From Octadecabacter arcticus 238 (GTDB taxonomy: Bacteria > Pseudomonadota > Alphaproteobacteria > Rhodobacterales > Rhodobacteraceae): 64,000 nucleotides of DNA. The notes under the pieces are model-generated. The model was not told the DNA's origin. It saw only the letters and a list, made by a program, of their open reading frames with translations, and searched no databases. The stretch is taken from positions 377,001 through 441,000 of the forward strand of contig NC_020908.1 of NCBI RefSeq assembly GCF_000155735.2, read 5' to 3'. Below are positions 40,643-64,000 of the stretch, one piece after another. The position numbers and the translations under genes are program-made. The stretch's first letter is position 1, and every line of letters starts with the position of its first letter.

Positions 40643-40969
40643 TTAGGAATCGTCGTCTGGTGCGGCGACATCAGCGATTTCGTCCAGCGGGACAGTATCG
40701 TCGTCCTCATCTTCCAGAACATCGTCGCCCAAATTTGTATCATCGTCGTCCTCATCATCGTCGAGCACGAGATCGTCGTCTTCCGCTTCTTCTTCCGTCG
40801 CCTTCGTCTGGGCGTCGGCAGCGTCCGCGACCATGGTGCGGGTCTTACCTGTGACCACAACAACGGTTTCACCCGTGTAGGGGCTGATGATCGGATCAGC
40901 GTTCAGGTCGTAGAACCGTTTTCCGGTGGTCGGGCAGAGGCGTTTAGTGCCCCACTCTTCCTTTGGCAT
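40643..40969 (-). CDS. FYDLN-acid family protein (TIGR02300)
   Basis: A 108-residue protein of unknown function, conserved in alphaproteobacteria. The family N-terminus is complete: KEEWGTKRLCPTTGKRFYDL (residues 3-22) followed by NADPIISPYTG. The C-terminal half is very acidic, with long Asp/Glu runs (residues 65-108). I chose the ATG at 40969, which has AGGAAG upstream; the family always begins close to this Met. It lies upstream of tRNA-Ala on the same strand. Confidence 0.9.
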   Translation of the reverse strand: MPKEEWGTKRLCPTTGKRFYDLNADPIISPYTGETVVVVTGKTRTMVADAADAQTKATEEEAEDDDLVLDDDEDDDDTNLGDDVLEDEDDDTVPLDEIADVAAPDDDS

Positions 40970-41076: not shown

Positions 41077-41766
41077 ATGGGACGTTTGATCCTTGAAGGC
41101 AACCCCCCTGTGGAGGTGCAGTTGCGCCGGTCTGCACAGGCGCGGCGGTTGTCGTTGCGAATATCGCGTCTGGACGGTCGCGCGACGTTGACGTTGCCAC
41201 ACCGCGTGCCGGAGCGCGAAGGCATGGCGTTCCTGCGTGACCGCGAAGAGTGGCTGCGCGCGCACATGGATGCGATTGAACCTGAGGTGCATGTGCGGAT
41301 CGGTGGGACGGTCCTGTTTCGCGGCGCTGAACTGGCGTTGGTGGCCGGTGACTTGAAGCGGGCGAGGCTGGCACAGGGCGCGTTGATGCTGCCTGATGAT
41401 CCAGAAAAAACAGGCAAACGTGTCGCAGCGTTCCTGAAATTGCAGGCGCGGGATGCTTTGGCCGATGCGTCTGATCGGTACTCGCAGGCTTTGGGCAAAC
41501 CCTACGGGCGGATCAGTTTGCGCGATACGAGGTCCCGCTGGGGGTCGTGTTCATCGGCGGGCGATCTGATGTATTCGTGGCGCCTTATAATGGCCCCGCC
41601 AGAGGTGCTCGACTACGTTGCAGCACACGAAGTTGCGCATTTGCAGCATATGGATCACAGCCCGCGATTTTGGGCTGCTGTCGAGCGGTTGTATCCCACG
41701 CACAAGACCTGTCGCACATGGTTGCGCACCCATGGTGGCGCGTTGCACCGTGTGCGTTTTGATTGA
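41077..41766 (+). CDS. YgjP/SprT-like metalloprotease family protein (DUF45)
   Basis: Cytoplasmic protein of 229 residues with the zinc-metallopeptidase motif HEVAHLQHMDH (HExxH, about residues 186-196) preceded by SLRDTRSRWGSCSS, the family signature. The N-terminal half is beta-rich with basic residues (RRSAQARRLSLRISRLDGR). Similar proteins occur next to restriction and other DNA-related genes, but their substrate is not established. It stands divergent from the FYDLN gene and 31 bases before the GntR gene. Confidence 0.88.
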   Translation: MGRLILEGNPPVEVQLRRSAQARRLSLRISRLDGRATLTLPHRVPEREGMAFLRDREEWLRAHMDAIEPEVHVRIGGTVLFRGAELALVAGDLKRARLAQGALMLPDDPEKTGKRVAAFLKLQARDALADASDRYSQALGKPYGRISLRDTRSRWGSCSSAGDLMYSWRLIMAPPEVLDYVAAHEVAHLQHMDHSPRFWAAVERLYPTHKTCRTWLRTHGGALHRVRFD

Positions 41767-41779
41767 CCTCCCGACGTGA

Positions 41780-41789
41780 TGTGATCACA
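41780..41789. promoter_or_regulatory. TGTGATCACA palindrome before the GntR gene
   Basis: A perfect 10-bp palindrome, set in a looser outer repeat (ACGT on both sides, 41774-41794). It ends eight bases before the ATG of the GntR gene, a position suited to autorepression. The same palindrome occurs in pairs before sucC and sdhC. Confidence 0.65.
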
Positions 41790-41797
41790 AACGTCCC

Positions 41798-42448
41798 ATG
41801 TTGATCCAATCTGAAGCAACCAAGCCGATGGGTGCCGCCCATGACCGTGTGTACCGCGCCCTTCGATCGCGCATTATGCACGGAGAAATCGACCCCGGGC
41901 AGGCGCTGACGCTGCGCGGGATCGGCAAGGAATTCGGGGTGTCGATGACCCCCGCGCGCGAAGCGGGGCGGCGGTTGGTGGCCGAGGGGGCTTTGTTTTT
42001 ATCGTCATCGGGGCGGGTCTCGACGCCGGAATTGTCCAATGAGCGGATCGAAGAACTTGCGACATTACGGGCTTTGTTGGAACCGGAGTTGGCGGCGCGG
42101 GCGTTGCCGCGCGCGCATTTGGCGCTGATTGATCGGCTGGAAGAAATCAATAATCGCGTGTCGTCGGTGATCGCGCGACAGGATGCACCGGGGTATATCC
42201 GGCTCAACCTCGAATTTCACCGGACGTTGTATTTAAGGGCCCAAGCGCCAGCCATGCTCGCCATGGCAGAGACGGTTTGGCTGCAACTTGGGCCCACGAT
42301 GTCCAAACTCTATGGTCGGTTGCGGCGAACAGAGCCGCCCCGAAACCACAAACTTATCCTCGCGGCGCTCAAGGCGGGGGATGAAGCGAGTTTGAAACTG
42401 GCCGTGCGTGCGGATGCGACGCAAGGCCTACGGATGCTAAAAGTCTAG
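41798..42448 (+). CDS. GntR-family regulator, FCD subgroup; candidate TCA-cycle regulator
   Basis: Regulator of 216 residues. The winged helix is clear (YRALRSRIMHGEIDPGQALT at about residues 19-38, then GIGKEFGVSMTPAREAGRRL), followed by an all-helical FCD effector domain with the metal-type residues in NLEFHRTLYLRA and NHKLILAALKAGD. FCD proteins bind organic acids such as pyruvate, lactate or citrate. The palindrome TGTGATCACA just before its start recurs before sucC and sdhC, so control of TCA genes is a reasonable hypothesis. Its stop overlaps that of the broken terB-like gene on the other strand. Confidence 0.88.
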   Translation: MLIQSEATKPMGAAHDRVYRALRSRIMHGEIDPGQALTLRGIGKEFGVSMTPAREAGRRLVAEGALFLSSSGRVSTPELSNERIEELATLRALLEPELAARALPRAHLALIDRLEEINNRVSSVIARQDAPGYIRLNLEFHRTLYLRAQAPAMLAMAETVWLQLGPTMSKLYGRLRRTEPPRNHKLILAALKAGDEASLKLAVRADATQGLRMLKV

Positions 42449-42620: not shown

Positions 42621-43823
42621 CAAGGCTTATCCCTTTTAGTCCGGTTGCCCCACATGTTGACGCGGCGCAGAATCTTGCCCTTGTGGCTTTAGAGGCGGAT
42701 CGGATCAGTTTGTAACGTCTGGTGGGTTTATAGGGCGTGGCTTTTGCCGTGAACGAGGCCCTTCAGGCGCGCTGTTCAACAAAATCACGATATGTCGCTG
42801 GCCCGAGACCAACACCGATCCCCAGCAGCGTGTCGAAGGCGCTTCGCATGTGTCGCCGTCGGTTCCAGCGGAACACGAATTCGTCGAGATAGCGTTGTAG
42901 ATGGCACTTTCTGAGGCCGTGGAAGACGCCTTTTGCCCACGTTTTTAGGTTGGAGAACACGCGGTGGACCCAGTGGAGTATGTCGTGTGCCTTCTTGCCG
43001 CTGACGACCTTTGCCTCATGCGTGTTTGCAGGAGGATTTTCGTAACCGAGCCAGCCATCCGTGATGATGTGAGCGCCAGGCTCTACAGCCTGACCAATGA
43101 ACCCGTGCAGCGTCTTTGACGCGCCGTCGGGAATGTGTTTCATCCTGATACGGCGCGGATGTCCGTCACTTGATAACTCGACGGCACAGACGACAAACAT
43201 CTTTCCAACCGGGCTGCGCCCACCCTTTGGCCGGTCCTCGGGATCATGCCGGGACCGGAACGGCATCTCTGTTTCATCGATTTCGACAAGGTCTTTCAGG
43301 GGGTTGCGGTCAGGGTTGACCATCGACCGCCGCAGCTTTTGCAAGAGGAGGTCGCCGAGAAGCGCCATCGGTCCGAGCGACGATGGCGACCCGTCTTGTA
43401 GCTGCCAAGGCCAAGTTGCGCCTGAAGTTGCAGCGCTGACATGCCGTTGGAATGGCTGGTGATGATGTGCGCGGCAAGAAACCAAATTCGCAACGGCAAA
43501 TGGCTGCTGTGCATTACCGTGCCAGCCGTCACGGATGTCTGCCGTGCGCAACCGGCACATTCCCAAGTCGCGCGATTTCGCTTTAACGGCCAGCCCTTGC
43601 AGGTGCCACAGGAAGGACAGACGAAGCCCTCAGGCCAACGATGTTCCACCAGATAATGCGAACACGCTTCCTCATCAGAAAACCTGGCGTCGAACGCGGG
43701 GCGGGACATGGGTTTGTCGTTTTTCCATCTGGCTGGCATGGGAAGAACAATACCAGAACATTCTAGATTGGCAAGCCGCTTCGCACTACATCAGGTGCCG
43801 CCGGAGCAAAGGGGATAAGCCTT
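42621..43823 (-). mobile_element. IS1595-family element, copy 2
   Basis: 1203 bp, the same length as copy 1, with inverted repeats AAGGCTTATCCC at both ends. It is flanked by the 8-bp duplication CTGGCGGT (42613-42620 and 43824-43831). It interrupts the terB-like gene. Confidence 0.93.
42763..43739 (-). pseudogene. IS1595-family transposase in two frames, copy 2
   Basis: Same structure as copy 1: a zinc-ribbon N-terminal frame (43739 down) and a DDE core in another frame (to 42763), separated by the 42-base stretch with inverted repeats (about 43350-43391). A few residues differ from copy 1 (KKAHDI for KKARDI, LKTWAKG for LKTRAKG, VEQRA for VKQRA). LKTW is the more usual form in the family. 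Confidence 0.82.
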
Positions 43824-44371: not shown

Positions 44372-45506
44372 TGTGAATAAGTTCAGATAGATGTGAGTCA
44401 AAATTTTGTTGCCAAGATTTAGGCGACCTCGGAGACTGAGAATTGAAAGAAACCAGCTCACGAGGCCAATATGCAAATCATCGGACTGCACAAGAACGTT
44501 TATAAACTTTATGCTTGGGCGCGGACACAAGAATGTTTGGACGTGTACCGTATCAAATACGAAGGTCAGGTTCGGCAATGGGACGACTTACGTACAGAGG
44601 GCGTTTCTCTATCAAAGTGCGCTGAATTCGTCAGCATCTCGCGCGCGACATATTACCGTCACAAGCGTATTTTGAAGGATTTGGCGCAGGCAATCATACC
44701 GCCTTCAAAGGCTCCCAAACGCTGCAACAAGTCACAGTGGGGCGAGGCAGAAAAGCAATTGGTGCTTGAGGCCCGCCGCGACAATGAAACCTACGGTAAG
44801 GAGAAAATAGGGGCCATCTTGCGTCGCGACAAAAAGCAAACCATGAGCGATAGCACCGTGGGGCGCATTTTGAGCTTTCTAAGGAAAAAAGGCCTGATCA
44901 CACGATCAAGATCTGCGCCCCAAAAGCGCAAGCGTAATTTTTCCAAGGGGCATGCCAAGGGATGGAAATATAGGGATTACAAAGATATTGTGGTTGGCGA
45001 GCGTGTGCAGATCGATCATATGACTGCCACGAAGAACGGCGTCACGTGCAAACACTTTCAAGCCTGGGAGAGGTGTAGCAAGCATATCCACGCGCAAGTT
45101 TATTCGAATGCCACGGCACGCTCTGCCAAACGGTTTTTGCAAGAACTCGTGGAAATAGCTCCCTATAAGATCATCTCAATTCAAGTCGATGGCGGGTCTG
45201 AGTTTATGGCCGATTTTGAGACAGCGTGCGAACAGATGGAGATCCCGCTCATTGTGCTGCCGCCAGCAAGGCCAAAATACAACGGTGGTGTCGAGCGCGG
45301 TAACCGCACCTTCCGCGAAGAGTTCTATGCATGTCGTGATCTCATTGCCGACAGCATAGGAGCGATGCGGTTTGAACTTCGAAAAGCCGTCGATAAATAC
45401 AACACATTCAGGCCTCATCATGCCTTGAAAGGCAAGACACCAATGGAGTAAATTCGAATCACTCAGGCCAAAGTCGTGTGAGTCTCAAAACACCTGAACC
45501 TATACA
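44372..45506 (+). mobile_element. Nested IS with rve-type transposase (IS481/IS3-like)
   Basis: 1135 bp beginning with TGT and ending with ACA. The ends share an imperfect inverted repeat (TGTGAATAAGTTCAG against, reversed, TGTATAGGTTCAG). A two-base repeat AC flanks it. Its removal restores the IS200 tnpA frame exactly. The family assignment is uncertain between IS481 and IS3 groups. Confidence 0.8.
44471..45451 (+). CDS. rve-type transposase of the nested IS
   Basis: A 326-residue transposase with an N-terminal helix-turn-helix (GVSLSKCAEFVSISRATYYR, about residues 45-64) and an integrase core: Asp in VQIDHMTATK, Asp in IQVDGGSEFM and Glu in REEFYACRD. The frame ends in TAA after KTPME, where relatives have a Tyr codon; the next codons (IRITQAKVV, then a stop) look like the original tail. 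So a nonsense change has probably removed about ten residues. Confidence 0.85.
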   Translation: MQIIGLHKNVYKLYAWARTQECLDVYRIKYEGQVRQWDDLRTEGVSLSKCAEFVSISRATYYRHKRILKDLAQAIIPPSKAPKRCNKSQWGEAEKQLVLEARRDNETYGKEKIGAILRRDKKQTMSDSTVGRILSFLRKKGLITRSRSAPQKRKRNFSKGHAKGWKYRDYKDIVVGERVQIDHMTATKNGVTCKHFQAWERCSKHIHAQVYSNATARSAKRFLQELVEIAPYKIISIQVDGGSEFMADFETACEQMEIPLIVLPPARPKYNGGVERGNRTFREEFYACRDLIADSIGAMRFELRKAVDKYNTFRPHHALKGKTPME

Positions 45507-46327: not shown

Positions 46328-47716
46328 CTAGGCGTGGATCGCGCCGTCACCGCAGGCAAGGGCGGCTTCGCGCACGGCCTCTGAATAGGTCGGATGTGCG
46401 TGGCAGGTGCGCGCGAGGTCTTCTGCAGCGGCGCCAAATTCCATGGCCACACAGATTTCATGGATCAAATCGCCCGCCATCGGGCCGATGATATGCGCCC
46501 CAAGAATGCGGTCCGTCGTTTTGTCGGCAAGGATTTTGACAAATCCGTCGCCCGCGAAATTCGCCTTGGCGCGGCCATTGCCCATAAAGCTGAACTTACC
46601 GATCTTATAATCGACTCCGTCTTCCTTAAGTTGCTCTTCGGTTTTGCCGACATTCGCGACCTCTGGGTGGGTGTAGATGACACCGGGTATCACACCATAG
46701 TTAACATGCGGTTTCTGACCCGCCAGACCTTCGGCGCAGGCCATGCCTTCGTCTTCGGCCTTATGCGCCAGCATCGGCCCGTCGATACAATCACCAAGCG
46801 CGTAAATGCCCGCTACATTGGTCTGGTAATGGGCGTCAGTCTTGATCTGTCCACGCTCGGAGATTTCGACGCCCAGCTCTGCCAGACCCAAGCCGTCGGT
46901 GAACGGGCGGCGGCCCGTGGCGACCAGAACAGTGTCGGCGTCCATCGTGCGTTCGCTGTCGTCGCTGCGCAGTTTGTACGTGACGGTTGCCTTGTTATTT
47001 TTGGTATCAACGGATTGCACCGCCGCGCCCATTACAAACTCAAGCCCTTGTTTTTTCAGCAAACGTTGGAATGCTTTTTGCACTTCGCCGTCCATGCCGG
47101 GTGTGATTTCGTTCAGGTATTCGATCACCGTGACCTTGGACCCAAGGCGGCTGTACACGGACCCGAGTTCAAGGCCGATCACACCGGCACCAATGACGAT
47201 CAGGTCTTTGGGGATCTTGCCCAATTCCAGCGCGCCGGTGGATGACACGACGGTCTTTTCATCGATCTCAACACCCTTGAGCGAGGACACTTCGGAGCCG
47301 GACGCGACGATGATGTTCTTGGCGTCATGCACGTCGTCGCCAACTTTGACTTTGCCGGCTTCGGGGATAGACCCCCAGCCCTTAATCCAGTCGATTTTGT
47401 TCTTTTTGAACAGGAATTCGATGCCTTTGGTGTTGGTCGCGATGACGTCGTCTTTGTACGACAACATCTGTTTCCAATCGACCGATTGGGTCTTTCCCTT
47501 AAGGCCCATGGCGGCGAAATTATGTTGGGCTTCGTGCAGCATATGGGACGCGTGCAGCAATGCCTTGGACGGGATGCAGCCGACGTTCAGGCAGGTGCCG
47601 CCCAAGGTATCGCGCCCCTCAACCACAGCCGTTTTCAGGCCCAGTTGCGCGCAACGAATGGCGCAAACGTAGCCGCCGGGGCCGGAACCGATGATGATGA
47701 CGTCGTAGCTGGACAT
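46328..47716 (-). CDS. lpd: Dihydrolipoyl dehydrogenase (E3)
   Basis: FAD-dependent E3 component of 462 residues; it reoxidises the lipoyl groups of SucB with NAD+. The FAD loop [14 protein letters not shown] is at residues 7-20, the redox disulfide in [16 protein letters not shown] (Cys near residues 41 and 46), the NAD loop [17 protein letters not shown] near residue 180, and the catalytic His-Glu pair in [11 protein letters not shown] near the C-terminus. The start is the ATG at 47716, with AAGGA upstream; the frame continues 50 codons further without support. Last gene of the suc operon. Confidence 0.96.
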
Positions 47717-47799
47717 AGGGTATTCCTTTAAGTTTTGGCGCGTCACAGGGCGTACAGACCGCTTACACAAGCTGTACACAACCTGTATGTACACGCGAC

Positions 47800-48213
47800 T
47801 TAGATCAGAGTTGATACGATCATGGCGAACGTGGCAAGAAAGCCGACGAACCAGATGGCGCTGCGCCACGGGCTGAGGCCAAAGTAATAAGCGGGGACGT
47901 AGGCGATGCGCGCGACGAGGTAGGTGGTGGCGCAGACGGCGGTGAATTTGGTGTTCTGGCCGCTGAGTTGCACGACGAGAACGGCGATGGTGAACAGGAT
48001 GAGTGCTTCGAAGTGGTTGTTCATCGCCCGCGCAAGGCGGCCAGTTTTGGTGGACAGCTGTTCGAGGATGGTTTTGCCGCCCATGCGGTCAGGGTCGCGC
48101 GGCGATGCGGTTTTACCTGTGCCGAGTTCAACGTTGGCAGGGACAGCCATGAGCGCGAACTGCACAGCTTGGAGCAGGGCCGCGAGGGCGAGGGTGGTGA
48201 GTTCGGGGGTCAC
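47800..48213 (-). CDS. MAPEG-family membrane protein
   Basis: Integral membrane protein of 137 residues with four hydrophobic segments, related to microsomal glutathione transferases. Family features are [20 protein letters not shown] at the N-terminus, [15 protein letters not shown] near residue 70 and [21 protein letters not shown] near residue 100. I start it at the GTG at 48213, directly after the stop of the gene before it, since relatives begin MTPEL; the longer frame would overlap that gene. It sits between sucB and lpd, an arrangement I recall from other Rhodobacteraceae. Confidence 0.87.
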
Positions 48214-48703: not shown

Positions 48704-50254
48704 TTACAAATCCATTAACAAGCGACGTGGATCTTCGAGCGCCTCTTTCACCCGCACAAGGAACGTCACAGCGCCTTTGCCGTCGACGATGCGGTGGTCG
48801 TAGGACAGCGCCAGATACATCATTGGACGGATCACGACTTCGCCGTTGATCGCCATGGGGCGGTCTTGGATTTTGTGCATGCCGAGAATGCCTGACTGTG
48901 GCGGGTTCAGGATCGGCGAGGACATGAGCGAGCCGTAGACGCCGCCGTTGGAAATCGTGAACGTACCGCCCTGCATTTCAGCCATGGTGAGTTTGCCGTC
49001 GCGGGCTTTTGCGCCCATGGCGGCAATCGCCTTTTCGATGCCAGCGAACGACATCTGGTCGGCGTCATTGATCACCGGAACCACCAGACCTGTCGGCGTG
49101 CCAGCGGCGATGCCCATGTTGACGTATTTCTTGTAGACCACATCGGTGCCGTCGATTTCGGCGTTCACTTCTGGCACTTCGTTGAGAGCATGGACGCAAG
49201 CCTTGGTGAAGAACGACATAAAGCCGAGTTTCACGCCGTGTTTTTTCAGGAACAAGTCTTTGTATTCGTTACGCAATGCCATGACCTCGGTCATGTCGAC
49301 GTCGTTGTAGGTGGTCAGCATGGCGGCGGTGTTCTGGCTTTCTTTCAGGCGACGCGCGATGGTCTGGCGCAGGCGGGTCATCTTGACGCGCTCTTCGCGG
49401 GAGTCCTGATCTGCGGCCACAGGCGCGCGTGGGGGCGCGGCTTGGACGACTGCGGGCGCGGGGGATGCCAGCGCCTTGAGCACGTCTTCTTTCATCACAC
49501 GACCATCTTTGCCGGTGCCTTTGACGTCCGTGAGGTTGTTTTCGGCCATCATCTTTTTGGCGCTGGGCGCGTCTTCGACGTCTTTGGATGCCGTCGCTGG
49601 GGCGGCAGTTGCGGCGGGCGCGGACGGCGCTGACACGGCGGCTGAGCCATCGGTGGACATGACGGCGAGCTTGCCGCCTGCCTCAACGGTTGCGCCTTCT
49701 TCGGCGAGCAGTTTGGTCATGACACCTGCGGCGGGTGCGGGCACTTCGACGCTGACTTTGTCGGTTTCAAGTTCGCACAGCATCTCGTCTGCCTGAAACG
49801 CTTGGCCGGGCTTTTTGAACCATGTGGAAACGGTCGCTTCGGTCACGGATTCGCCAAGGGTGGGCACCATGATGTCCATCTCGGTACCGTTGGATTTGGG
49901 GGTCTCAGCGGGCTCTTCATCATCGCGGGGTCTGATATCGCTCGGTCCCGTGTCGGATGAGCTTGGGACTTTTTCCTCAGGTTTTGGGGTATCGTCCGTG
50001 TCGGTCTTTTTCGCCGCGCCGCCTTCGCTGATCTGCGCGAGCAGGGCGTCGACGCCGACAGTATCGCCTTCGGCGGCGACGATTTCAGTCAGGGTGCCCG
50101 CGATGGGCGCGGGGACTTCGACGGTGACTTTGTCCGTTTCAAGTTCGCACAACATTTCATCGACTGCGACGGCATCGCCGGGCTTTTTGAACCATGTGGC
50201 GACGGTTGCTTCTGTGACGCTTTCGCCAAGGGTGGGGACGCGGACTTCGGTCAT
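48704..50254 (-). CDS. sucB: Dihydrolipoyllysine-residue succinyltransferase (E2 of 2-oxoglutarate dehydrogenase)
   Basis: Core subunit of 516 residues that transfers the succinyl group to CoA. Unlike most SucB proteins (about 400 residues, one lipoyl domain) it has two lipoyl domains: residues 2-76 with Lys42 in [10 protein letters not shown] and residues 127-200 with Lys166 in [10 protein letters not shown], joined by an acidic linker. They are followed by the peripheral subunit-binding domain ([20 protein letters not shown], near residue 230) and the catalytic domain with [10 protein letters not shown] near the C-terminus. The start overlaps the sucA stop as TAATG. Confidence 0.96.
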
Positions 50255-53214
50255 TATTTTGATCCTTTAACGGTAAGCGCATCGTCAACGAGTGCGGCTT
50301 GTTCTGCTTTGTGGCGCGATGCGAGGCCCGTGGCGGGCGAGGCGGCTGCGGCGCGGCCTGCGTATTTAGGGCGCGAATGGTCAGCGTTGATGCGGGTCAG
50401 GACCCATTCGATATTGGGTTCCATGAACGACCACGCGCCTTGGTTTTTGGGTTCTTCCTGACACCAGACCATGTGCGCGGTCTTGAAGCGTTCAAGTTCC
50501 TTGACGGCGGACTGGGCTGGGAACGGATAGAATTGCTCGAAGCGCATGATGTAGACGTCATCAATGCCGCGTGCGTCGCGTTCTTCGAGCAGGTCAAAAT
50601 AGACTTTGCCCGAACACATGACGACGCGTTTGATTTTGTCGTCCGGCTGCAATGTGGTGTCCGAATTGCCATGCTGCGCGTCGTCCCAAAGGACGCGGTG
50701 GAAACTGGAACCTTCTTGGAATTCTTCCGCCTTGGACACTGCCATTTTGTGACGCAGAAGCGATTTTGGCGTCATCATGATCAGCGGTTTGCGGTAGCTG
50801 CGGTGCAACTGGCGGCGCAGGATGTGGAAATAGTTCGCCGGTGTCGTGCAGTTCGCCACGATCCAGTTGTCGCCGCCACACATGGTCAGGAAGCGTTCAA
50901 GCCGTGAGGACGAGTGTTCCGGTCCTTGGCCTTCATAGCCGTGGGGCAGCAGGCAGACGAGGCCGGACATGCGCAGCCATTTGGATTCACCGGAGCTGAT
51001 GAATTGATCGAACATGATCTGCGCGCCGTTTGCGAAATCGCCAAATTGCGCTTCCCAGAGGGTCAATGCGTTGGGTTCCGCAAGCGAATAGCCGTATTCA
51101 AACCCGAGGACCGCGTATTCTGACAGCATGGAATCAATGGCTTCGAAGTTGCCCTGACCTTCGCGGATATTGTTGAGCGGGTAGTAGCGTTCTTCGGTGT
51201 CTTGGTTCACCAGCCCAGAATGGCGCTGAGAGAACGTGCCACGGGTGGAATCCTGACCTGACAGGCGCACTGGATAGCCTTCGGTGAGCAGCGAGCCGAA
51301 GGCAAGGGCTTCGCCGGTGGCCCAGTCGAACCCTTCGCCGGTCTCAAACATTTTGGCTTTGGCACCAAGGATGCGACCAATGGTTTTGTGCAGTGGGAAA
51401 CCGTCGGGCGCGGTTGTCAGCGCCTTGCCGATTTCATCAAAGGTTTCTGCCTTGATCCATGTCTTGCCGCGCTGGTATTTGTCTTTTTCGCGCTTATCGA
51501 GATGGGACCATTTTCCGTCAAGCCAGTCGGCCTTGTTGGGTTTGTAGTCGGTGCCGGCCTCGAATTCTGCCGAAAGATAGGCCTGAAATTCTTCTTTCAT
51601 GCCCTCGATCTCGCCCTCGGGCACGAGGCCGTCTTTGACGAGGCGATCTGTATAGAGCGTCAGCGTGGTCTTTTGTTGTTTGATCTTTTTGTACATCAAC
51701 GGGTTGGTGAACATCGGTTCGTCGCCTTCATTGTGACCGAAGCGGCGGTAACAAATGATGTCGAGAACCACGTCTTTGTGGAACTTCTGGCGGAATTCTG
51801 TGGCGACGCGTGCGGCGTGCACCACGGCTTCGGGGTCGTCTCCGTTGACGTGGAAAATCGGCGCTTCGACCATCAGCGCGATATCAGTCGGGTAGGGCGA
51901 TGAGCGGCTGAAGTGCGGCGCGGTGGTGAAACCGATCTGGTTGTTGACGACGATGTGCATGGTGCCGCCGGTGCGGTGCCCGCGCAGACCCGACAGACCG
52001 AAGCCTTCGGCGACGACGCCTTGGCCCGCAAATGCCGCATCACCGTGCAGCAGGATCGCCATGGATTGGGTGCGGGATTTGTCGTTTTGTTGGTCCTGTT
52101 TGGCGCGCACTTTGCCGAGCACGACGGGGTTCACGGCCTCAAGGTGGGACGGGTTCGCGGTAAGTGACAAATGCACCGAATTGCCGTCAAATTCACGATC
52201 CGACGATGCGCCGAGGTGGTATTTCACATCGCCCGATCCGTCGACGTCTTCAGGGCTGGATGATCCCCCCTGAAATTCGTTGAAAATTGCGCGATAGGGT
52301 TTTTTCATCACATTGGCGAGCACGGACAGGCGGCCACGATGCGGCATGCCGATCACGATGTTGCGCAGGCCAAGCTGGCCACCGCGTTTGATGATCTGTT
52401 CCATCGCAGGGATCAGGCTTTCGCCACCATCCAGACCGAACCGCTTTGTGCCCATGTATTTAACGTGCAGAAATTTCTCGAAGCCTTCGGCCTGCACGAG
52501 GCTGTTCAGGATCGCCTTGCGTCCTTGCTTTGTGAACGTAATTTCCTTGCCCAGACCCTCAATCCGTTCCTTCAGCCATGCGGCTTCTTGCGGGTTGGAG
52601 ATGTGCATGTATTGCAATGCAAATGTGCTACAATAGGTCCGCTGCACGATGGCGAGGATGTCTTTCATCGACGCCACTTCGAGGCCGAGCACATTGTCGA
52701 TAAAGATCGGGCGATCCATGTCTTCGGGTTTGAACCCGTAGGACGCAGGATCGAGTTCGGGGTGTGGGATTTCATCGCGCATGCCGAGTGGGTCAAGGTC
52801 GGCTACAAGATGCCCCCTGATCCGGTAGGCGCGGATGATCATCAACGCGCGGATCGAATCCAGCACCGCGTTGCGAATCTGCTCTTCGGAAACCTCAACG
52901 CCCTTGGATGCGGCTTTCTCTTTAATTTTTTGACCCGCCGCTGCGGGTTCTGCGGCCCACTGACCGTCAAGCGCCGCCGTCAGGTCGTCGTTAGGGATCG
53001 GCGGCCAATCGTTGCGCGCCCAAGACGGGCCAGCGGCCTCGGCCTTGGCGTCTTCGGGTGCATCGCCCAAGGATTTGAAGAATGCGTGCCAGCTGTCATC
53101 CACCGCGTTCGGATCATCCGCATACCGCGCGTAAAGCTGTTCGATATATTCCGCGTTGTGGCCCTGCATAAAGGACGATGCGTGGAACTGGTCGTTGGAA
53201 GATTGGTCAGTCAT
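50254..53214 (-). CDS. sucA: 2-oxoglutarate dehydrogenase E1 component
   Basis: Thiamine-diphosphate enzyme of 986 residues that decarboxylates 2-oxoglutarate. The N-terminus has the usual [20 protein letters not shown] (residues 13-32). The ThDP/Mg site is in [14 protein letters not shown] and [10 protein letters not shown], and the C-terminal half has [19 protein letters not shown] and [20 protein letters not shown]. Full length and uninterrupted. It follows the uncharacterised secreted-protein gene by eight bases, with AGGTAGG before the ATG, and overlaps sucB. Confidence 0.97.
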
Positions 53215-53873: not shown

Positions 53874-54755
53874 TTACCCAATCGCCTTCAACACAGCCTC
53901 GCCCAGTGTTGCTGGGCTGTCGGCTACAATGATACCAGCGGATTTCATCGCTTCGATCTTGCTTTCCGCGTCGCCTTTGCCACCAGCAACAATCGCGCCA
54001 GCGTGGCCCATACGACGACCTGGAGGCGCCGTGCGACCTGCGATGAAACCAGCGGTTGGTTTCCAACGGCCTTTTTTCTTTTGGGCGGTCAGGAATTCGG
54101 CGGCTTCTTCTTCTGCGGAGCCACCGATTTCGCCGATCATGATCATTGAATGGGTTTCGTCGTCGTCCAAAAACATGTTCAGGATGTCGATGTGTTCGGT
54201 GCCCTTGATCGGGTCGCCGCCAATGCCGACGGCGGTGGACTGGCCAAGGCCGCTGTCGCTGGTCTGCTTGACCGCTTCGTAGGTCAGCGTACCGGAACGC
54301 GACACAACGCCGACCGACCCACGTTTGTGGATGTGGCCGGGCATGATGCCGATTTTACAAGCATTCGGTGTGATCACGCCGGGGCAGTTTGGCCCGATCA
54401 GGCGGGATTTGGAGCCTTCAAGTGCACGCTTGACCTTCATCATGTCGAGCACGGGAATGCCTTCGGTGATGCAGATGATCAGCTCCATCTCAGCGTCGAT
54501 CGCCTCGAGGATCGAATCAGCGGCAAACGGCGGTGGCACATAGATGACGGAGGCATTGGCTTCTGTCACGTGCTTGGCTTCGTGGACGGAATTGAAGATC
54601 GGCAGGTCGAGGTGCGTTTGACCGCCCTTGCCCGGCGTCACGCCGCCAACCATTTTGGTGCCGTAAGCGATTGCCTGTTCGGAGTGGAACGTGCCCTGCG
54701 AGCCCGTAAGGCCCTGACAGATGACTTTGGTGTTTTCGTCGATGAGAATGGCCAT
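53874..54755 (-). CDS. sucD: Succinyl-CoA synthetase alpha subunit
   Basis: Forms succinate and ATP/GTP from succinyl-CoA together with SucC. It has 293 residues. The CoA-binding domain shows [20 protein letters not shown] (residues 17-36), and the phosphorylated His is in [16 protein letters not shown] near residue 250. It lies 53 bases after sucC with AAGGAGG before the ATG. Confidence 0.96.
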
Positions 54756-54808: not shown

Positions 54809-56002
54809 TTAGCCTTTGACCGCTTTCACGATCTTTTCAGCGCCGTCTTTCAAATCATCCGCAGCGATCACGTCGAGGCCGGAGTTGTTGATGATGGCTT
54901 TGCCTTCGTCGACGTTCGTGCCTTCAAGTCGCACAACCAGCGGGACTTTGAGGCCGACTTCTTTGACCGCAGATACAACGCCTTCGGCGATGACATCGCA
55001 GCGCATGATGCCGCCAAAGATGTTCACGAGGATGCCTTTGACCTGTGGATCAGAGGTAATGATCTTGAACGCCTCGGTCACTTTTTCTTTGGTCGCACCG
55101 CCGCCCACGTCGAGGAAGTTGGCAGGTTCAGCGCCGTACAGCTTGATGATGTCCATCGTCGCCATCGCGAGGCCAGCTCCGTTGACCATGCAGCCAATTT
55201 CGCCGTCCAGTGCAATGTAGTTCAGGTCGAATTTCGACGCGGCCAGTTCTTTGGGGTCTTCTTCGGTTTCATCGCGCAAGCTGGCGATGTCGGGATGGCG
55301 GTAGATCGCGTTGCCGTCGAAAGACACCTTTGCGTCAAGCACTTTGAGATCGCCAGCCTTGGTGACGATCAGCGGATTGATCTCAAGCATCTCCATGTCT
55401 TTTTCGGTGAACGCTTTGTACAGCAGACCCATCAGGTTAATGCATTGTTTGACCTGCTGACCCGTGAGGCCAAGGGTGAATGCAACACGGCGGCCGTGAA
55501 ATGCCTGATAGCCCGTGGCCGGATCAACGGTGAAGTTGACGATCTTTTCAGGGGTGTTGGCCGCGACTTCTTCGATGTCCATGCCGCCTTCGGTCGACAC
55601 AACAAAGCCGATCCGCGATGTCTGGCGATCAACCAGAAGGGCAAGGTAGAATTCGGATTCAATCGCTGCGCCATCTTCGATGTAGACGCGGTTGACCTGC
55701 TTGCCTGCTGGACCAGTTTGATGGGTGACCAGAGTGCGGCCCAACATCTTTTTGGCTTCGTCAGCGGCTTCGCCCACGGATTTGGTCAGACGTACGCCGC
55801 CTGCTTCGCCAGCACCGGCTTCTTGGAAGTGACCCTTGCCGCGACCACCTGCGTGGATCTGCGCCTTGACGACCCAGATCGGCCCGTCCAATTCGCTTGC
55901 GGCGGTTTTGGCGTCTTCTGCCTTGAGAACAGCGCGACCGTCGCTGACGGGTGCCCCGTAAGATGCAAGAAGCGCCTTGGCCTGATATTCGTGGATATTC
56001 AT
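54809..56002 (-). CDS. sucC: Succinyl-CoA synthetase beta subunit
   Basis: ATP-grasp subunit of 397 residues, standard length. The N-terminal [19 protein letters not shown], the nucleotide-binding [13 protein letters not shown] (near residue 46), EINPLIVTK and the C-terminal [14 protein letters not shown] are all present. First gene of the sucCD-sucAB transcription unit after a 428-base gap behind mdh. The TGTGATCACA operator pair lies about 100-130 bases upstream of its ATG. Confidence 0.96.
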
Positions 56003-56101: not shown

Positions 56102-56132
56102 TGTGATCACACGTCCAAAAGGTGTGATCACA
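56102..56132. promoter_or_regulatory. TGTGATCACA operator pair upstream of sucC
   Basis: Two perfect copies of TGTGATCACA at 56102-56111 and 56123-56132, 21 bp apart (two helical turns). Flanking bases make the whole an inverted repeat (TTTGTGATCACAC and GTGTGATCACAAA). The rest of the 56003-56430 gap holds the mdh terminator and no gene that I can support. Confidence 0.72.
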
Positions 56133-56380
56133 AAAATAGAATCGGTTAGCGCCAACATGGTTTTTGCATGAATATCGCGAAATGGCTTGCTGTTATGGCC
56201 ACAGCGCAGCGGATCACGCGCAGTCCCGATCAGACGTCCTTGATCGCTTGGATCAGCATTTGCGCAGGATTGGGTTCCCACACGTTCAAACGACGTGTCA
56301 TTGCCGTTGATTATAGCGGCTGCGAGAGGTGAAATGGCTCAACAGTGGCGATTCCCACACAAGATCGATTCCTATAAAAA

Positions 56381-58530: not shown

Positions 58531-59388
58531 TTATGCGGCCTTTCGCTCGAATGCCAAGGGGCTTTTGCCGCCTAATGATGAGTGGCGGCGGCGCGGGTTA
58601 TAGAACCCATTGATATATTGGAAGATCGCGCCCTCGGCCTGACGGCGTGTGTCTCGACGATTGCGCCAGATCAGCTCAGCCTTGATGGATTTGAAGAACG
58701 TTTCAACCATGGAATTGTCATAGCAATTGCCCTTGCCGCTCATCGAGGCCTTGAAGCCGTGCTTTTTCAGGCGCTTCTGATACGCGTTGGAACAATATTG
58801 CGAGCCGCGATCCGTATGGTGAATGCAGCATTCGGGCGGCTGGCGCAGTGCCACAGCCATGTCCAGCGCACGGATCGCGAGATCCTGTTTCATGCGGTTA
58901 CTGACAGCCCAGCCGATGACGCGCCGGGAGTACAGATCAAGGATAACGGCCAAATAAAGCCACATTTCACTGGTCCAGATATAGCTTATGTCACCGGCCC
59001 ACTTCTGGTTCGGCCCATCCGCTGAGAAGTCCTGGTCCAGCAAGTTAGGCGCGATGTTGAACGTGTGATTGCTGTCCGTCGTTGCCTTATATTTCTGGGT
59101 TCTGATGGTCTTGATGCCATTCTCACGCATCAAACGGCCCACGCGACGGTGCCCAACCCGCAGCCCCAATTCCTGTAGCTCTTCGGTCATGCGGGGTCGC
59201 CCATAGCTTTGTAAACTGAGGCGATGTTGCTCACGGATGTGGGCCAAAAGCACCATATCATCACGTTGGCGCTGGCTCATCGGCCGCTTCCGCCAAGCGC
59301 GAAACCCACGCGATGTGACCTGCATAATCCGGCAGAGAAACTCTACCGACCAAACTTCTTTCCAGGCGTCGATAAAGGCGAACCTCAC
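58531..59388 (-). CDS. IS3-family transposase OrfB
   Basis: Catalytic part of the transposase, 285 residues in its own frame. The integrase core has Asp in WAGDISYIWT, Asp in HHTDRGSQYC and Glu in MVETFFKSIKAEL. OrfB is normally made as an OrfAB fusion by -1 frameshifting in orfA; its own ATG overlaps the orfA stop region. Confidence 0.93.
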   Translation of the reverse strand: MRFAFIDAWKEVWSVEFLCRIMQVTSRGFRAWRKRPMSQRQRDDMVLLAHIREQHRLSLQSYGRPRMTEELQELGLRVGHRRVGRLMRENGIKTIRTQKYKATTDSNHTFNIAPNLLDQDFSADGPNQKWAGDISYIWTSEMWLYLAVILDLYSRRVIGWAVSNRMKQDLAIRALDMAVALRQPPECCIHHTDRGSQYCSNAYQKRLKKHGFKASMSGKGNCYDNSMVETFFKSIKAELIWRNRRDTRRQAEGAIFQYINGFYNPRRRHSSLGGKSPLAFERKAA

Positions 59389-63076: not shown

Positions 63077-63763
63077 ATGAAGGGATTACTGACCAGTCTG
63101 ATGCTCTGCGCGCCTGCCGCGTCTGCTTGCGACATTGCTTTGATGTTGGCGGTGGATGTGTCAGGGTCAGTGGACGGGCGTGAATATCGCATCCAGATGG
63201 ACGGGCTTGCGGCGGCACTGACGGATAGCTCTGTAATGGGCGCGCTTGTGGCGTCACAAGCGCAGATCGCGCTGATGCAGTGGACCGGAACAGGGCGGCA
63301 AACGGTCGTGATTAACTGGACAAAAATCACCAACACCGATGACGTGCATGCATTCGCATTCGAGGTCGAGACGGTGCCCCGCATTTGGCGCGATTTTTCA
63401 ACGGCAATCGGCGAAGCGCTGGCGCTGGCTGTGCCCTATTTTGCTATCGTGGATGACTGTGATCGCTTCGTTATCGATATTTCTGGCGATGGCATCAGCA
63501 ATGAGGGCCAAGCGCCGCGCGCGGTTTGGCCTGATCTTGAGGCGGCGGGCGTGACGGTAAATGCGATGGTTATTCAGGACACGGGGTTCGATCTGACTGA
63601 ATGGTTTGAAAGTCATGTCATCACCGGAGCGGGTGCTTTTGCGGTTACGGCCAATTCGTTTGATGAATACCCCGAACAGATTATCCGTAAACTTTATCGT
63701 GAACTGACGACTCCCATTTCGTTGGGGCTTATTCCTAACAGGACAACGGGCGAATTGCGCTAA
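63077..63763 (+). CDS. DUF1194 (VWA-like) secreted protein
   Basis: A 228-residue protein with a short signal peptide (residues 1-15, cleaved near ASACD) followed by a von Willebrand factor A-type domain. The metal-ion-dependent adhesion site begins in LAVDVSGSVDGREY (DxSGS, residues 21-34) and continues with VIDISGDGISN near residue 136. Members of DUF1194 are common in Rhodobacteraceae, with unknown role. It stands before sdhC, separated by 185 bases that hold the operator pair. Confidence 0.88.
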   Translation: MKGLLTSLMLCAPAASACDIALMLAVDVSGSVDGREYRIQMDGLAAALTDSSVMGALVASQAQIALMQWTGTGRQTVVINWTKITNTDDVHAFAFEVETVPRIWRDFSTAIGEALALAVPYFAIVDDCDRFVIDISGDGISNEGQAPRAVWPDLEAAGVTVNAMVIQDTGFDLTEWFESHVITGAGAFAVTANSFDEYPEQIIRKLYRELTTPISLGLIPNRTTGELR

Positions 63764-63776
63764 CACAGCGACTATT

Positions 63777-63807
63777 TGTGATCACTGGTCGCGAAAGTGT
63801 GATCACA
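63777..63807. promoter_or_regulatory. TGTGATCACA operator pair upstream of sdhC
   Basis: TGTGATCACT at 63777-63786 (one mismatch) and TGTGATCACA at 63798-63807, again 21 bp apart. Like the sucC pair, it is flanked by TTTG on the left and CAAA on the right. It lies about 142-172 bases before the sdhC ATG. Confidence 0.72.
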
Positions 63808-63948
63808 AAGGCGAAAAATCGCCAAAGCGCGACAAGATTCCGCACCTGTTAGCGCGACCGCTCCGTGACACTGGCGTACAAACCTTTAAGAAGGTGGCAA
63901 CATATACCGTCGCATACCGGCTTCGGGTAACCAAAATGAGGAACAAAC

Positions 63949-64000
63949 ATGGCTGACATGAATCGGGATAAACGCCCGCTGTCCCCACATTTGACGATCT
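63949..64000 (+). CDS. sdhC: Succinate dehydrogenase cytochrome b556 subunit, first codons
   Basis: The window ends 17 codons into this gene. The peptide MADMNRDKRPLSPHLTI is the typical SdhC N-terminus (NRxxRPLSPHL), which precedes the first haem-binding membrane helix. GAGGA lies seven bases before the ATG. It would open the sdhCDAB operon of complex II, which feeds electrons from succinate to quinone. Confidence 0.85.
   Translation, partial: MADMNRDKRPLSPHLTI

Follow-up and report, generated by a model that had tools for sequence, protein, structure and literature searches.

The GntR-type gene at 41798–42448 of the 64,000-nucleotide stretch of Octadecabacter arcticus 238 DNA analysed here (the window) is highly likely to be the Octadecabacter orthologue of AkgR, a regulator that would activate the suc and sdh operons of the TCA cycle from paired operators, repress its own gene and have its activity set by a ligand. 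The genomes show directly where the sites lie, how they are spaced, that they precede TCA genes and that they co-occur with the gene. In the circuit that we infer from them, AkgR dimers would occupy pairs of GTGATCAC palindromes spaced by two helical turns, which precede the sucC(DAB) and sdhC(DAB) core promoters, and would activate transcription from there; self-repression would act through a single copy close upstream of akgR, probably located in the spacer that separates −35 from −10. A ligand, probably a carboxylate in the FCD pocket, would set AkgR activity. The circuit is real and widely conserved, but it is already known as the AkgR system.

41798–42448, plus strand: probable akgR orthologue, GntR family, 216 aa with a ligand-binding FCD domain (Pfam, relatives)

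The 216-aa open reading frame scores above the Pfam cut-offs for the GntR domain (50.1 bits, cut-off 27) and the FCD domain (69.9 bits, cut-off 24.3); these are its sole domains at E ≤ 0.001, LacI-type domains being absent. The named NCBIfam GntR models (PRK11414, PhnR, NanR, CsiR) all remain below their curated cut-offs, and assignment to a named NCBIfam regulator was rejected (top score NF008504, 81.9 bits against a cut-off of 225). The closest named proteins are those of Octadecabacter sp. ANT-3 (99%) and Octadecabacter antarcticus 307 (98%), and the closest solved structure by sequence is that of McbR (PDB 4p9f, E 1.1e-19, residues 20–200). The FCD metal-site pattern of CGL2915/LldR is Asp-His-His-His. 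The positions matching the usual metal ligands, assigned by spacing alone, are Asn137, His141, His184 and Asp206 in the window's protein, and each is identical in all 82 aligned relatives; judged in this way, the FCD pocket is conserved but altered relative to that pattern. The DNA-binding domain carries Gly at residue 57 (window 41966–41968), a position occupied by Val in at least 80% of 82 relatives; the surrounding stretch is conserved, which makes the substitution unusual.

41780–41789, unstranded: single operator TGTGATCACA before akgR, putative autorepression site (exact match)
56102–56132, unstranded: sucC operon, paired operators with 21 bp spacing, both TGTGATCACA (sites at 56102 and 56123)
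63777–63807, unstranded: sdh operon, paired operators with 21 bp spacing, TGTGATCACT followed by TGTGATCACA (sites at 63777 and 63798)

The first-pass annotation of this DNA had placed a palindrome eight bases before the ATG of an FCD-type GntR gene, which is exactly where it lies (41780–41789, with the ATG at 41798). It had also described the same palindrome in pairs before sucC and sdhC. Both genes indeed have a pair of 21 bp spacing: that of sucC (minus strand, start codon at 56002) lies some 100 bp upstream and that of sdhC (ATG at 63949) some 142 bp upstream, but the first half of the sdhC pair is TGTGATCACT and hence not the exact 10-mer. The exact 10-mer TGTGATCACA occurs four times in the 5.48-Mb genome (3 contigs), every copy being in the window, before gntR, sucC and sdhC, and its reversed control does not occur in the whole genome. 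With up to one mismatch the window holds seven matches against 2.25 expected, a number reached in none of 100 shuffles; two of the seven, at 40850 and 54369, fall outside the sites discussed here. For single TGTGATCAC places in the same genome, 30 of the 44 listed were examined: nine are the known operators, ORFs longer than 150 aa contain 17 of the remaining 21, and the 30 included no further conspicuous TCA target. One single TGTGATCAC (L210, G000:C1:1163400) lies 121 bp upstream of an ORF that by eye resembles a response regulator, probably by chance.

54809–56002, minus strand: sucC, predicted target (NCBIfam PRK00696, 581.6 bits, cut-off 370)
53874–54755, minus strand: sucD, likely target in the sucC operon (Pfam CoA_binding and Ligase_CoA)
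50254–53214, minus strand: sucA (2-oxoglutarate dehydrogenase E1), likely target in the sucC operon (NCBIfam PRK09404, 1366.8 bits)
48704–50254, minus strand: sucB (E2), likely target in the sucC operon (NCBIfam PRK05704, 745.8 bits)
46328–47869, minus strand: lpd (dihydrolipoyl dehydrogenase), possibly in the sucC operon (NCBIfam TIGR01350, 565.1 bits)
63949–64000, plus strand: first 52 bases of sdhC, predicted target (ORFs in locus L132; Pfam Sdh_cyt)

The sdhC, sdhD, sdhA and sdhB genes run on past the end of the window, with Pfam matches to Sdh_cyt for SdhC and to Succ_DH_flav_C for SdhA. Between gntR, the suc genes and sdh lie transposase genes (window 42763–43566, 44471–45451 and 58531–59388) of IS1595 type, IS481-like (below the model's cut-off) and IS3 type; the gene and its sites are retained in the window although these interrupt the cluster.

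How would AkgR act from these operators? Candidate −35 elements in the window bear on this question.

63865–63870, plus strand: GTGACA, likely −35 of sdhC, downstream of the operator pair (pattern across sdhC promoters)
41763–41768, plus strand: TTGACC, possible −35 of akgR (fixed distance from the operator in relatives)

In 25 of 32 sdhC promoters, the pair is followed some 60 bp downstream by a conserved −35-like sequence ([GA]TGAC[AT], starting 86–92 bp from the start of the pair; shuffling expects 0.23, a figure that understates chance somewhat, the pattern having been picked after viewing the aligned promoters), and in many promoters a weak −10 follows about 22 bp farther downstream. This would place the centres of the sdhC palindromes at about −97 and −118 relative to the predicted start, a position at which an activator is expected and not a blocking repressor. 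Since a generic sigma-70 scan scattered at sucC, with the best match overlapping the pair in 11, downstream of it in 20 and elsewhere in 5 of 36 promoters, we relied there on column conservation, which reveals conserved columns at distances similar to those of sdhC, weaker than for sdhC. At sdhC the best generic match overlaps the pair in 6, lies downstream in 23 and elsewhere in 3 of 32 promoters; a promoter scan of window 63700–64000 returned no promoter-like site. Taken as a whole, the promoter geometry suggests activation of suc and sdh by AkgR.

The same regulator and sites could also serve to repress suc and sdh, if protein bound at the pair blocked transcription until a TCA intermediate released it. 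Repressors are common among FCD-GntR proteins, the best promoter-like match does overlap the pair in the minority of sucC and sdhC promoters counted above, and the operator before the regulator's own gene sits at a place typical for a repressor. Yet the −35-like sequence well downstream of most sdhC pairs, together with the term 'transcriptional activator' used for AkgR in the available part of PMC6365646, makes repression of the two operons improbable; if this is what the first-pass annotation meant in calling the protein their controller, site position and published term both point the opposite way. The TCA intermediate that it proposed as effector would be a candidate ligand.

Autoregulation, which had also been proposed for the gene, is plausible, as GTGATCAC stands just upstream of it in most relatives. 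The upstream region was compared in the best 80 of 522 confirmed relatives (80 loci), and 70 of these 80 carry GTGATCAC 16–66 bases before the matched start; two of the other ten keep TGTGATCACA with one mismatch and eight differ by at least three mismatches. At one locus (L005) the autoregulatory site is missing (at least three mismatches) though the protein is 99% identical to that of the window. In 64 of the 70 relatives with an operator, TTGAC precedes it by the same fixed distance, a conservation that may stem in part from its overlap with the end of the upstream ORF. No clear −10 was seen in the akgR promoter, and a sequence resembling a ribosome site is present between operator and start in 2 of the 70. 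The akgR promoter is probably leaderless with the operator in its spacer, an arrangement from which we infer autorepression.

Gene and pair were surveyed in the same 199 Rhodobacteraceae genomes. A GntR relative is found at E ≤ 4.9e-78 in 179 genomes and the other 20 have none better than 1e-51, the split between presence and absence being our own choice. An exact GTGATCAC pair, defined as two copies with 3–33 bases between them, is likewise present in 179/199, and a pair of the reversed pattern in 0/199. Both gene and pair occur in 177 genomes, neither in 18, the gene only in two and the pair only in two, an agreement in 195 of 199 (Fisher p 2e-21, a value that ignores the relatedness of the genomes). 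The gene-only genomes are G035, which has a pair with one mismatch, and G139, which has no sucC match at E ≤ 1e-80; G106 and G152, with neither gene nor pair, have no such match either, and these three are weak evidence for that reason. The pair-only genomes, in which no orthologue was found, are G018 and G105. The first-pass annotation had named persistence of the sites in genomes that lack the gene as a point against it; 18 of the 20 gene-less genomes are without an exact pair. Its link between the GntR protein and the two TCA operons is borne out as well, as gene and pairs co-occur and the pairs mark suc and sdh.

In the SucC tree (53 loci named, 52 rows, 50 of them labelled) the have/lack label changes at least seven times (bootstrap 7–9). 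Because the well-supported branches alone force one change and carry two independent pairs, too few for a test, repeated joint loss of gene and pair is likely, though short of proof. Among 387 genomes drawn from the class, the pair of 20–21 bp is present in 6/6 family members and in 2 of 381 others, and neither of these two resembles a TCA promoter by its ORF list. As to single genomes, G100, which has no pairs, carries an AkgR orthologue split over different reading frames at the usual place after the YgjP-like gene (L173, G100:C56:33057-33543); the gene may be decaying, or the fragmented genome may have been misassembled there. In G172, two close AkgR relatives are found in one genome (C18:749658 and C7:630782; 77% and 79% identity).

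Could the palindromes be bound by another regulator, for instance another FCD-GntR protein, with the GntR gene a bystander? The motif alone does not name the protein, because GTGATCAC is also the predicted site of PS417_07240 in the available part of PMC6365646, and two genomes carry pairs with no orthologue found. However, gene and pair agree in all but four of the 199 genomes, GTGATCAC precedes the gene itself in most of the best 80 of 522 relatives, and the motif published in the same source is that of AkgR. In addition, a 72%-identical relative on a Paracoccus denitrificans replicon has GTGATCAC upstream, with no suc or sdh found within 20 kb. We therefore consider a bystander role for the gene very improbable, and binding of the palindromes by AkgR itself the preferred reading.

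The genes behind the pairs are consistent with such a role for AkgR. We examined 78 distinct pairs (75 from 36 of the 179 pair-bearing genomes, two from the window and one from G018), 71 of which have 20–21 bp spacing. All 71 stand before TCA genes, namely sucC (36), sdhC (33), sucA (1) and fumC (1), and the sequence between the palindromes is variable save for a mild T-rich preference. The sucA pair (G157, L153:1433-1461) lies 135 bp upstream of sucA in place of sucC, as if regulation had followed the first gene of a rearranged operon. The fumC pair (G037, L148:1494-1522) is an extra 21-bp pair 124 bp upstream of the class II fumarase gene and suggests that the AkgR regulon extends to fumarase in some genera. 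Among the remaining pairs, one of 13 bp spacing stands before gntR (G166), and the six with spacings of 18, 18, 24, 27, 27 and 31 are likely coding coincidences, since each falls in a reading frame of 163 codons or more without a stop. A chance origin, or a repeat element near TCA genes, for which we found no supporting point, has a negligible probability given pairs in 179 genomes against none for the reversed control, all 71 properly spaced pairs at TCA genes and variable sequence between their palindromes.

Single copies of GTGATCAC near the cluster were also considered: those at L090, L093, L099, L100, L101, L103 and L105 lie inside ORFs and are probably coding coincidences. Another (L088:4001, G184) lies 139 bp upstream of lpd, possibly an extra AkgR target in that genus.

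What would allow one protein to act in opposite ways? A proposal that we regard as evenly balanced is that operator layout decides between two modes of AkgR action, activation from the far-upstream pair (about −97 and −118 from the predicted sdhC start) and repression from the single copy in the spacer of its own, probably leaderless promoter. In this proposal the pair is also a portable tag of TCA operons, found before sucA in one genus and fumC in another and largely missing from genomes whose regulator is damaged or absent. Our analysis gives a name to a gene listed in databases merely as 'GntR family transcriptional regulator', and the family-wide survey finds the AkgR circuit, with its strictly two-turn operator pair, almost throughout the Rhodobacteraceae. 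This pair can be used for annotating the AkgR regulon in marine bacteria, and the genomes that have lost the circuit offer a natural test of its purpose.

Imam et al., in mBio in 2015, reportedly showed that the GntR-family AkgR (RSP_0981) directly activates several TCA genes. We take RSP_0981 and AkgR to be the same protein, a probable identity that shared family, targets and motif support. In the available part of PMC4344238, the GntR-family RSP_0981 of R. sphaeroides is predicted to control sucCD, sdh and 2-oxoglutarate dehydrogenase, with RSP_0967-6, RSP_0974-6 and RSP_0965-62 as targets, and a 'transcriptional activator AkgR' is reported to use the GTGATCAC motif in that of PMC6365646. 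Genome G046 of our survey was identified as R. sphaeroides by one protein, the reaction-centre L subunit (100%; the next of the 199 genomes reaches 85%), with a query sequence 100% identical to PDB 1aig_L. Its relative of the window's protein shows 76% identity over 202 residues, has Pfam GntR and FCD domains above cut-off, and its gene sits some 0.75 kb past sdhB with suc, mdh, sdh and a YgjP-like gene as neighbours; operator pairs stand before both sucC and sdhC. We regard the window's gene as very probably the Octadecabacter counterpart of AkgR.

These sources correct the first-pass annotation in two respects. It knew of no described regulator with such targets, while the RSP_0981 prediction and the AkgR motif had already been published (PMC4344238 and PMC6365646, as far as their available text goes). 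It further described AkgR as a LacI-type protein with a different site, which is wrong: AkgR uses GTGATCAC, RSP_0981 is a GntR protein and CceR is the LacI-type one (same sources). Among the literature matches to the 10-mer, no paper names an AkgR-type regulator in its title, and the available text of PMC4344238 and PMC6365646 does not mention the two-turn pairing, the co-loss, the sucA and fumC pairs or the operator at the gene's own start. We make no claim that strict pairing, co-loss, sucA and fumC pairs and own-start operator are unpublished.

Finally, how does the window's regulator compare with known systems? The E. coli-type McbR shares its fold family and presumably differs from it in function. 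CceR (RSP_1663) likewise regulates central carbon metabolism in the same bacteria, but belongs to the LacI family, unlike the window's GntR protein. Its motif in the available part of PMC4344238 is GTT-N6-8-AAC, and its predicted targets are mdh, pckA, malic enzyme, pdh, sdh and glycolytic genes. A candidate CceR-like box adjoins the sucC pair.

56144–56157, unstranded: candidate CceR-like box (GTT-N6-AAC) adjoining the sucC pair (fits the RSP_1663 motif in the available part of PMC4344238)

This box has one mismatch to GTTAGCGCTAAC, and a weaker CceR-like box, GTTAGCGCGACC, lies at 63848–63859 between the sdhC pair and the likely promoter. With at most two mismatches, GTTAGCGCTAAC is found in 6 of 36 sucC promoters (0.3 expected) and 6 of 32 sdhC promoters (0.18 expected), counts that include the window itself, after viewing which the box was picked. 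AkgR and CceR may thus exert joint control in a minority of promoters. The GntR-like PS417_07240 of Pseudomonas simiae has the predicted site GTGATCAC and is 32% identical to AkgR; unlike AkgR, its targets are genes of deoxyribonate oxidation, with its own gene first in the cluster (PMC6365646, available part). Compared with AkgR/RSP_0981, the window differs in the transposase genes within its cluster, and it has a GTGATCAC match before the regulator gene, where R. sphaeroides (G046) lacks a good one. The two systems are alike in their GntR family, their GTGATCAC site, their suc, 2-oxoglutarate dehydrogenase and sdh targets and their YgjP-like, suc and sdh neighbours.
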